Shown piece after piece: positions 4,125-27,291 of a stretch of DNA of 33,446 nucleotides. The DNA is from an uncultured Clostridia bacterium (lineage in GTDB: Bacteria; Bacillota; Clostridia; Oscillospirales; CAG-272): the NCBI GenBank assembly GCA_947586625.1, contig CANPXS010000013.1, positions 1-33,446 on the forward strand, in the 5' to 3' direction. Every line of letters begins with the position of its first letter. Position 1 is the first letter of the stretch. The position numbers and the translations under genes were made by a program. A model generated the notes under the pieces. That model was given only the letters and a program-made list of their open reading frames with translations. It was not told the origin of the DNA and did no database searches.

Positions 4125-4310
4125 GCATCGCGCCGTAGGCTTCGCAGCTTCACCTACGCGCACCGTGCTCGTGCGTTGATGGCGTGCCCAGCGTTGGACG
4201 CAGACACGACGTCTTGACGGCGATATCGCCCCGTCGCGAGGGAGCTGTTCGCAGGCTTCCCGCCTCACCTGCGTATGCTGCCTCTTGCTGTAACTGCTTC
4301 ACCTCATCTG
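4125..4310 (-). ncRNA. Candidate structured ncRNA, copy A
   Basis: Starts just downstream of a TTGATA-N17-TATAAT promoter. Contains 5' hairpin gcaggtgaggcgggaagcctgc, conserved core aacagctccctcgcgacgg...gtcgtgtctgcg...gcacgagcacggtgcgc and 3' hairpin cgtaggtgaagctgcgaagcctacg. Repeats at 7431..7558, 26566..26728 and 27117..27235. Confidence 0.5.
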
Positions 4311-4315
4311 CCTAT

Positions 4316-4344
4316 ATTATACCACAATTTTAGTGATTTATCAA
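4316..4344 (-). promoter_or_regulatory. Promoter of ncRNA copy A (TTGATA-N17-TATAAT)
   Basis: Reverse complement: ttgata aatcactaaaattgtgg tataat ataggcag; conserved with 7895..7923 and 26733..26760. Confidence 0.75.
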
Positions 4345-4420
4345 GTACTTTTCACGAATTTATGTATTTTTCACTTCACGCATAATCGTTCAACTGCATC
4401 CTTCACTGGTATTTCCGTTC

Positions 4421-4541
4421 ACCACGGTTCAATGTACAGTCTGTACCGACCGGCAACTATCTTTGCACATTTTACGTGGTGACGTCTTTCACACCAACAA
4501 ATAGGTTTTTGACAAGGGGGACTTTCTCGCAAGAAAGAGAA
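4421..4541 (+). repeat. Dispersed repeat block Y, copy A
   Basis: accacggttcaatgtacagtctgtaccgaccggcaactatctttgcacat...cgtggtgacgtctttcacacc...aggtttttgacaagggggactttctcgcaagaaag; matches 7643..7759 (inverted) and 26895..27024. Confidence 0.85.
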
Positions 4542-4551
4542 AGTGCGGGAT

Positions 4552-4582
4552 GAGGACCCTTTCTTAAAAAGAAAGGGTCCTC
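4552..4582 (+). terminator. 14-bp perfect stem-loop with cccccgaaccccct tail
   Basis: GAGGACCCTTTCTT aaa AAGAAAGGGTCCTC then cccccgaaccccctctccaaaagaac. Confidence 0.6.
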
Positions 4583-4735
4583 CCCCGAACCCCCTCTCCA
4601 AAAGAACACCGCGCCATAGCTGTGTGCGAGCAGCTCCGCGCGGCGTTTTATTATTGCGAAAAGTTTGGGGATGCCGGTTCTGCGCCGCGCGTATGCGACT
4701 ATAAAAAACTTTCGCGGAAATTTTCAAAAAATTTC

Positions 4736-5666: not shown

Positions 5667-5728
5667 AAATCCGTCAGATATAAAAAAACATAAAACGTAA
5701 TAAAAATTTTTGAAAAAAGAGGGGGTGC

Positions 5729-5819
5729 AGGGGGGAGAGAAGAACTTTTTATAGAAAAGTGGCGTTTCCTTTGGAAACGCACGAGTTTTCTTCGAAAACT
5801 CTGGTTCTTTCCTCCCCCT
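5729..5819 (+). other. Predicted three-stem intergenic RNA structure between ATPase and permease genes
   Basis: Closing arms agggggg-agagaagaac (5729-5745) and gttctttcctccccct (5804-5819) enclose hairpins GCGTTTCC-ttt-GGAAACGC (5762-5780) and GAGTTTTC-ttc-GAAAACTC (5783-5801). Confidence 0.6.
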
Positions 5820-5830
5820 GAAAGGTTAAA

Positions 5831-7092: not shown

Positions 7093-7132
7093 GGGGGAAG
7101 GAAAAATTCTTGAAAGAATTTTTCCTTCCCCC
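7093..7132 (+). terminator. 19-bp perfect stem-loop downstream of the ABC permease
   Basis: GGGGGAAGGAAAAATTCTT ga AAGAATTTTTCCTTCCCCC then gaacccccttgttttcaagaatttttat. Confidence 0.75.
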
Positions 7133-7244
7133 GAACCCCCTTGTTTTCAAGAATTTTTATGGACTTTTTTACAAAGTAAACGAAAATGCTTGTTTCGGAG
7201 ATAGCTTAAGATAAACACTAATCGGTCCGCTTTTGGCGAAGGCA

Positions 7245-7300: not shown

Positions 7301-7430
7301 GTTTGGAGCGTAAGCGACAAAACTCCTACCTTTCTACAAAAAGGGGTCCCTGAGTAAAGAAGTTTTCCTCGTTTATCACTTTTCAAGAATTTTTATTACA
7401 AGGGTTATTGTATGCTGTCACAAACGGGCA

Positions 7431-7558
7431 CCGTGCCGTAGGCTTCGCAGTTTCACCTACGCGCTCCCTACTCGTGCGCTGACGGCGCGTCAAGTTTCAA
7501 ACGCAGACACGACGTTTGGACGGCGCAATCGACATGCCGCGAGGGAGCTGTTCGCAGG
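7431..7558 (-). ncRNA. Candidate ncRNA core, copy B1 (no adjacent promoter)
   Basis: Reverse complement ctgcgaacagctccctcgcggcatgtcgattgcgccgtccaaacgtcgtgtctgcgtttgaaacttgacgcgccgtcagcgcacgagtagggagcgcgtaggtgaaactgcgaagcctacggc aligns with copy A. Confidence 0.45.
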
Positions 7559-7642
7559 AAGTGTTGGCGCGGTGTTCTTTTGGAGAGGGGGTTCGGGGGA
7601 GGACTTTTTCTTATGAAGAAAAGGTCCTCATCCCGTCCTATC

Positions 7643-7759
7643 TCTTTCTTGCGAGAAAGTCCCCCTTGTCAAAAATCTGTTCAAAGGTGTGAAAGACGTC
7701 ACCACGTCAGGTGTGCAAAGGTAGCTGCCGGTGGGTACAGACTGTACATTGAACCGCGT
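7643..7759 (-). repeat. Dispersed repeat block Y, copy B (inverted relative to copy A)
   Basis: ctttcttgcgagaaagtcccccttgtcaaaaatctgttcaaaggtgtgaaagacgtcaccacgt...gtgcaaaggtagctgccggtgggtacagactgtacattgaaccg. Confidence 0.85.
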
Positions 7760-7766
7760 GTGAGCA

Positions 7767-7825
7767 GTATCTCCTCACTTCGTTCGGAGCTACGACACGT
7801 TTCCGCTTCGCGGAAAGTGTGGGAG
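7767..7825 (+). repeat. Dispersed double-hairpin repeat H, copy 2
   Basis: agtatctcctcacttcgttcggagctacgacacgtttccgcttcgcggaaagtgtgggag. Confidence 0.75.
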
Positions 7826-7894
7826 AAGTCAGTTATGGATACAGGTGAGCGTTTACGCAAAAAGTAAAAAAATACATAAATTTGTGAAAATCAC

Positions 7895-7923
7895 TTGACA
7901 AATCACAGGTTTTGTGGTATAAT
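7895..7923 (+). promoter_or_regulatory. Perfect consensus sigma-A promoter inside the dispersed element (TTGACA-N17-TATAAT)
   Basis: ttgaca aatcacaggttttgtgg tataat ataggcag; the A/T-rich upstream block aaatacataaatttgtgaaaa is shared with the other copies. Confidence 0.8.
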
Positions 7924-7925
7924 AT

Positions 7926-8000
7926 AGGCAGTCAAGGGAGATAAGGCGATTGCGGCGAGCCACTGTGCGCGTAGGTGAGGCTGGGAAGCCTTACGGCGGC
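7926..8000 (+). ncRNA. Truncated candidate ncRNA, copy B2 (5' leader fused to 3' hairpin, central core missing)
   Basis: aggcagtcaagggagataag...ccactgtgcgcgtaggtgaggctgggaagccttacggcg keeps the first and last segments of copies A and C. Confidence 0.35.
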
Positions 8001-26511: not shown

Positions 26512-26568
26512 CCACACTTTTCGCGTAAGCGAAAACGTGTAGTAGCTCCGAACGAAGTGAGGAGATAC
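26512..26568 (-). repeat. Dispersed double-hairpin repeat H, copy 3 (directly 3' of ncRNA copy C)
   Basis: Reverse complement ggtatctcctcacttcgttcggagctactacacgttttcgcttacgcgaaaagtgtggt. Confidence 0.75.
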
Positions 26569-26728
26569 CGGCTTCCCAGCCTCACCAATACGCACTGTGC
26601 TCGTGCGTTGACGGCGCGTCCAGCTTTAAATGCAGACACGACGCTTGGACGGCGATATCGACCCGTCGCGAGGGAGCTGTTCGCAGACTCTCCCGCTCAA
26701 CCTACGAACATCTCTTTCCCTTAACTGC
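26566..26728 (-). ncRNA. Candidate structured ncRNA, copy C
   Basis: Reverse complement aggcagttaagggaaagagatgttcgtaggttgagcgggagagtctgcgaacagctccctcgcgacgggtcgatatcgccgtccaagcgtcgtgtctgc...gcacgagcacagtgcgtattggtgaggctgggaagccggtat; aligned with A, B1 and D. Confidence 0.5.
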
Positions 26729-26732
26729 CTAT

Positions 26733-26760
26733 ATTATACCACAAAATCTGTGATAGTCAA
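26733..26760 (-). promoter_or_regulatory. Promoter of ncRNA copy C (TTGACT-N16-TATAAT)
   Basis: Reverse complement ttgact atcacagattttgtgg tataat ataggcag. Confidence 0.75.
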
Positions 26761-26831
26761 GTACTTTTCACAAATTTATGTATTATTTTTTCGTTTTCGC
26801 GTAATCGCTCGTCCGTTGCCATAGCTGGGTG

Positions 26832-26893
26832 CTCCCACGCTTTTCGCGAAGCGAAAACGTGTCGTAGCTCCGAACGAAGTGAGGAGATACTGC
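26832..26893 (-). repeat. Dispersed double-hairpin repeat H, copy 4
   Basis: ctcccacgcttttcgcgaagcgaaaacgtgtcgtagctccgaacgaagtgaggagatactgc. Confidence 0.75.
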
Positions 26894-26894
26894 T

Positions 26895-27024
26895 CACACG
26901 CGGTTCATTGTGCGATGCGCTCCCACCGGCAACTATCTTTGACTATCAGACGTGGTGACGTCTTTCACACTTTTGAATAGGTTTTTGACAAGGGGGACTT
27001 TCTCGCAAGAAAGTCCCCCTTGTC
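26895..27024 (+). repeat. Dispersed repeat block Y, copy C, ending in a 17-bp perfect hairpin
   Basis: cacacgcggttcattgtgcgatgcgctcccaccggcaactatctttg...cgtggtgacgtctttcacac...tttttGACAAGGGGGACTTTCTcgcaAGAAAGTCCCCCTTGTC. Confidence 0.85.
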
Positions 27025-27116
27025 GAACCCGAAAGAGGCTCCCGTGTGTTCGTCGATGTTATCCAGTCGGCGGCAAAAAAGGCGACGGGGCGTAGACCGC
27101 GTCAACATATCGGCAT

Positions 27117-27235
27117 AACAGCTCCCTCGCGACGTGTCGACTGCGCCGTCTAAGCGTCGTGTCTTCGTCGAACGATGGGAGCGTCGAGCATCGCACGAGC
27201 GCGGTGCGTGAACGTGAAGCTGGGAAGCCTACAGC
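27117..27235 (+). ncRNA. Candidate ncRNA core, copy D (no adjacent promoter)
   Basis: aacagctccctcgcgacgtgtcgactgcgccgtctaagcgtcgtgtcttcg...gcacgagcgcggtgcgtgaacgtgaagctgggaagcctacagc. Confidence 0.42.
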
Positions 27236-27291
27236 GAGTTTCTATATTTGGACGGCGGCACGGTCACTTCGCGAAAAGCGTATGCCATGCA

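Follow-up and report, generated by a model that had tools for sequence, protein, structure and literature searches.

Repeated, foldable blocks behind a promoter and RNA genes look alike in raw sequence, and we asked which of the two is present in a 33,446-nt stretch of DNA from an uncultured Clostridia bacterium (hereafter the window). The original prediction was an undescribed structured noncoding RNA in four copies, possibly trans-acting or part of a mobile element. Our analysis separates these look-alikes: the blocks are arms of an interspersed repeat, which is likely a MITE-like, Correia-type element that carries a promoter.

The Blocks Are Arms of a Multicopy Repeat

Searching the parent genome (G000; 2,387,497 bases in 164 contigs, of which the window is number 13; copy counts are lower bounds) with positions 4125-4344 by blastn yielded at least 42 matches instead of the four copies that had been counted. 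Three copies are located in the window (Table 1): copy A (4125-4640), which is without a distal arm; copy B (7428-7998), which retains one arm in full and the other as a remnant; and copy C (26570-27240), which is complete. As had been noticed, the blocks are repeats of each other, with the proximal arms of copies A and C and the distal arm of copy B matching directly at 77-82% and the distal arm of copy C matching in inverted orientation at about 80%. The near-consensus promoter described for copy A was also confirmed (11 of 12 bases), as was that of copy C. Blocks 7431-7558 and 27117-27235 lack promoters of their own; both are distal inverted arms from which the promoter of the element points away. 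The perfect promoter of copy B had been overlooked.

Table 1. Positions of the parts of the three repeat copies in the window
Feature	Position	Strand	Basis
Copy A, proximal arm, downstream of promoter	4125-4256	-	42 blastn matches in parent genome; alignment
Copy A, 5' hairpin of predicted transcript, CGCAGG...CCTGCG	4250-4273	-	counted over 31 copies
Copy A, promoter TTGATA-17-TATAAT (11/12 bases)	4316-4344	-	conserved block among copies
Copy A, interior, distal arm missing	4345-4640	-	repeats D2, I2; blastn
Copy B, distal arm, inverted, promoter pointing away	7428-7558	-	arm matches, inverted pairing
Copy B, interior	7559-7894	+	repeats I1, I2
Copy B, promoter TTGACA-17-TATAAT, perfect	7895-7923	+	pattern search; arm-pair set
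Copy B, proximal arm remnant	7956-7998	+	arm-pair comparison
Copy C, proximal arm	26570-26687	-	own-genome arm matches
Copy C, promoter TTGACT-16-TATAAT	26733-26760	-	sequence
Copy C, interior, nested hairpin repeat at 26836-26890	26761-27111	-	repeat comparison; blastn
Copy C, distal arm (copy D of the original prediction)	27112-27240	+	inverted arm pairing
Copy C, outer end motif TTGGACGGCGG	27248-27258	+	end motif GCCGTCCAA / TTGGACGGC common to many copies

To define the complete unit, 17 inverted arm pairs were extracted from the parent genome by arm similarity, disregarding the promoter. A full copy spans 546-843 bp, with arms of about 115-125 nt that are about 80% complementary and lie 295-588 bp apart, and a single outward TTGACA-N17-TATAAT promoter is located in its interior. 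The inverted terminal arms of the 17 pairs are as expected for a MITE, as are the short length, the high copy number (at least 42 matches) and the noncoding character. No conserved reading frame was found: the longest stop-free stretches (75-141 codons) change frame between copies and resemble those of shuffled sequences. Outside the arms, many copies carry GCCGTCCAA at one end and TTGGACGGC at the opposite end, and other end types exist. The family is a mosaic of interchangeable parts, and because the ends are mosaic, too, the mobile unit lacks a sharp definition.

A second interspersed hairpin repeat (CGCGAAGCGAAAACGTGT...; CACACTTTTCGCGAAGCGAAAACGTGT[CA]GYAG...) is often nested in the promoter element or abuts it. 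It occurs in 38 places in the parent genome, in 50 in the sister species (G007) and in a few in a third species (G004), and in the window at 26512-26568, 26836-26890, and 7767-7812.

The Promoter Is the Most Conserved Part of the Element

In 14 of the 17 inverted arm pairs, the TTGACA-17-TATAAT promoter is complete (12 of 12 bases) and its -10 hexamer is preceded by TG; one pair is entered twice in this set. Two of the remaining pairs have a promoter with 11 of 12 bases and one has none, while shuffled interiors score about 9. When 39 copies were aligned by their promoter region, mean pairwise identity reached 99.1% in the -35 and 98.3% in the -10 hexamer, compared to 58% over nine spacer positions, 73% over 40 positions upstream and 58% over about 20 positions downstream. 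The letters of the spacer drift, and its length is 17 in nearly all copies. The exact pattern was found 48 times in the parent genome and 51 times in the sister species, equally on both strands, and the reversed control pattern was not found at all. Since the hexamers are 98-99% identical compared to 58% for the spacer core and the downstream region, and since spacer length is held, the pattern is a signature of selection on promoter activity. The promoter is the part of the element that selection maintains.

The Repeat Family Is Shared by a Few Related Species

All genomes compared are fragmented metagenome assemblies. Arm copies are as numerous in the sister species (at least 40) as in the parent genome, and a divergent version of the arm occurs at least 40 times in the third species. 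Among 61 genomes sampled from the genus, its family and its order, no other substantial carrier was found. The repeat family is confined to part of one genus. Searches of GTDB genomes and viral contigs with the promoter pattern mainly returned generic sigma-A promoters; matches with long stretches of the element came mainly from one rabbit-gut metagenome genome, which is probably G007 itself. The arm core pattern was absent from the viral contigs searched.

The arms of the third species are not accompanied by the TTGACA-17-TATAAT promoter and adjoin other interior modules, which repeat AGCTGTTCGCA (L048-L066, L089-L118). Because the arm occurs there without the promoter, the two are presumably able to spread separately. 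Also present in this species is a further type of intergenic repeat with long hairpins (AAGGGGGACTTTCTCGCAAGAAAGTCCCCCTT and GGGTCCTC...GAGGACCC beside GGGGGTTCGGGGGAGG), which is found in the window at 4530-4610, 5720-5825, 7100-7145, 7575-7675, and 26985-27030.

The Arm Body Is Mostly Unconstrained as RNA

In agreement with the original prediction, Rfam returned no match at gathering thresholds and nothing of substance at relaxed thresholds. The compensatory stems on which the structured-RNA reading was based were followed in larger alignments. For the 3' hairpin, P2 and the CGCAC/GTGCG stem, pairing over 83 arms equaled the expectation for independent columns, pair by pair, and G-U was no more common than A-C (7 vs. 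11, 28 vs. 32 and 10 vs. 12, respectively). Mutual information over the same arms was dominated by nearby columns. With 48 arms, 42 to 115 of 500 shuffles equaled or exceeded the observed stem counts, and none of the 23 base pairs that RNAalifold predicted in the arm had changed on both sides.

The 5' hairpin just after the promoter behaved differently. Over 31 copies, 80.6% of cells pair, compared to 78.8% after shuffling (1 of 500 shuffles as high), and eight double changes were counted compared to 3.9 in shuffles (5 of 500 as high), nearly all of them at one pair (GC, AU, GU). At its seven inner pairs G-U outnumbers A-C (48 vs. 9), a count biased towards G-U by the choice of register by pairing. 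The compensatory change originally described was hence at chance level in the 3' hairpin and P2 and modestly upheld in the 5' hairpin, which could plausibly protect a leader.

Additionally, the arm is not a regular companion of the promoter. Homology among promoter copies extends about 500 bp upstream and mostly stops within 20 nt downstream, and an arm is present downstream of 28 of 61 promoters and absent in the other 33. Mutual identity among arms downstream of a promoter does not exceed that among distal arms (78.2% vs. 80.3%), and no terminator was found at the outer ends of copies A and C. From these comparisons, constraint on the arm body as RNA is mostly unsupported, with modest covariation limited to the 5' hairpin. 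The observation behind the original prediction was good; its structured-RNA reading is mostly not borne out.

All Placed Copies Are Intergenic

We placed 41 promoters relative to gene calls from a simple codon model, for which the window served as training sequence. All 41 lie between genes and none inside a called gene. The next downstream gene is co-oriented with the promoter in 19 of 40 cases and opposed in 21; two corrections after visual inspection, for an S21-like frame that had been missed in L174 and for a gene start close to a contig end in L180, keep this balance even. Because the orientation of the next gene is unbiased, the promoter is not generally kept to drive its neighbor. At L174 (own genome, C19:2404-2436), a promoter copy precedes the frame MAEIRVKENESLDSALRRF... 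by about 50 bp; by eye, we take this frame to resemble ribosomal protein S21.

Promoter Orientation Often Differs in the Sister Species

Shared sites were defined by a promoter in both the parent genome and the sister species together with a flank at high identity (n = 13). The promoter has the same orientation at 6 of these sites and the opposite orientation at 7, including the site of copy A in the window. Three of the seven (C30, C53, and C60) combine collinear flanks on both sides with a promoter that is reversed between the species. At C30, the two species agree letter for letter through the flank and over 83 bp of the outer arm and then diverge within the arm, a pattern that recombination of inverted arms would be expected to leave. 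For most of the oppositely oriented sites, similarity between the two copies does not exceed that of unrelated copies, which makes replacement or re-insertion just as likely an explanation as inversion.

Probing 12 further sites in the sister species revealed no clean empty site; most of the flanks that were located adjoin a copy there, too, and several contigs end inside the repeat. Two sites (L187 and L199) hint at rearrangement at the elements. Flanks lying on different contigs of the sister species were dismissed as a general sign of such rearrangement, since many of these contigs merely end inside the repeat. Breakpoints are scattered, and we therefore rejected a constant crossover position in the arm core, the trace that a site-specific recombinase would leave. 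At one locus (L180:1590-1625 compared to L069), the sister species differ in a block of about 14 nt that is bordered by a conserved CCGTCCAA and by an arm that is identical, as if this patch had been exchanged by itself.

Weighing the Possible Functions

What has to be explained is a multicopy, intergenic, ORF-less repeat with a constrained promoter, arms that are unconstrained as RNA, and an orientation that, at shared sites, often differs between the parent genome and the sister species. A structured, possibly trans-acting noncoding RNA family, in which the arm has its own promoter and, once transcribed, acts as RNA through conserved stems, would account for the strongly kept promoter, for the covariation and tolerated G-U pairs of the 5' hairpin and for some invariant potential arm pairs, e.g. 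CGCGAC/GTCGTG. We nevertheless consider it quite improbable: compensatory pairs are lacking throughout the arm, transcribed arms are not better conserved than others, more than half of the promoters (33 of 61) have no arm behind them, the third species has arms without this promoter, and the outer ends of copies A and C have no terminator. The strength of promoter constraint would also fit a mobile promoter retained for activating neighboring host genes, and a few copies have a start codon shortly behind the promoter, with the S21-like frame at L174 as an example. With next genes co-oriented in only 19 of 40 cases, this explanation is very unlikely.

The reversed sites bear on another reading, in which the roughly 50 dispersed elements per genome are invertible strong promoters comparable to invertons, and the transcribed side changes whenever the inverted arms recombine and turn the promoter around. 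The promoter does sit between inverted arms, 7 of 13 shared sites are opposite, three of them with both flanks collinear, and the C30 breakpoint falls within an otherwise identical arm. We regard this reading as unlikely, given that the arms are only about 80% identical, crossover points are not shared, no recombinase is tied to the copies, the promoter is not biased towards facing genes, and copies at most reversed sites differ as much as unrelated ones. If it held true, the lineage would keep reshuffling the transcribed side of about 50 intergenic regions, and flips within populations would constitute a large multilocus switch, directly testable with long-read metagenomes.

We therefore favor the MITE-like, promoter-carrying repeat, and the mobile-element option of the original prediction is supported. 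In this model, two inverted arms of about 125 nt bracket an interior of about 300-590 bp with one putative strong sigma-A promoter, which lies near one arm and would read outward through it into the flanking DNA. Copies may spread with the help of a putative transposase or recombinase and may swap pieces by recombination, and occasional recombination of the inverted arms may turn the promoter around. The transcript would start with a short leader that contains the 5' hairpin, and its remainder would be whatever adjoins the element. A weak point of the MITE-like reading is that many promoter copies have only one arm or none. Target-site duplications were not evident by eye in the flanks of 17 copies, whose ends are mosaic, and no arm pair had a gene-sized interior that could represent the autonomous partner; the only transposase family searched was Y1. 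Because neither target-site duplication nor autonomous partner was found, we do not classify the element as a proven MITE. A helper of the REP/RAYT kind was rejected, as PF01797 (Y1, TnpA-REP) had no match in the parent genome or the sister species.

Comparison with Known Repeat Families

The closest functional counterparts are the Correia (NEMIS) elements of Neisseria, which are likewise small, intergenic, many-copy repeats that have inverted repeats at their termini and sigma-70-type promoters inside; Correia elements carry such promoters and can invert (PMC10969869; PMC2229807). The likeness is functional, and sequence similarity is not expected. Correia units measure 105-155 bp, have inverted ends of 24 bp and show target duplications, whereas the element described here measures about 550-840 bp, with arms of about 125 nt, one promoter near one arm and no target duplication seen. 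BOX elements of Streptococcus pneumoniae form a foldable, modular mosaic whose mobility is inferred and for which no transposase is known (PMC3049150). The present family is also a foldable modular mosaic, but consists of other modules, with the near-invariant promoter as the constant part. It shares with invertons a promoter between inverted repeats and an orientation that varies among related genomes, and differs from them in its long and divergent arms, its roughly 50 copies, and the lack of an identified adjacent recombinase and of a target-gene class. REP/RAYT systems also comprise palindromic intergenic repeats in high copy number; here, the units are much longer and promoter-bearing, and neither the parent genome nor the sister species has a Y1 transposase. 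Repeats with a promoter as payload have so far been best known from the Correia elements of Neisseria, and the family described here is apparently an example from Clostridia in which the conserved payload is a consensus promoter.
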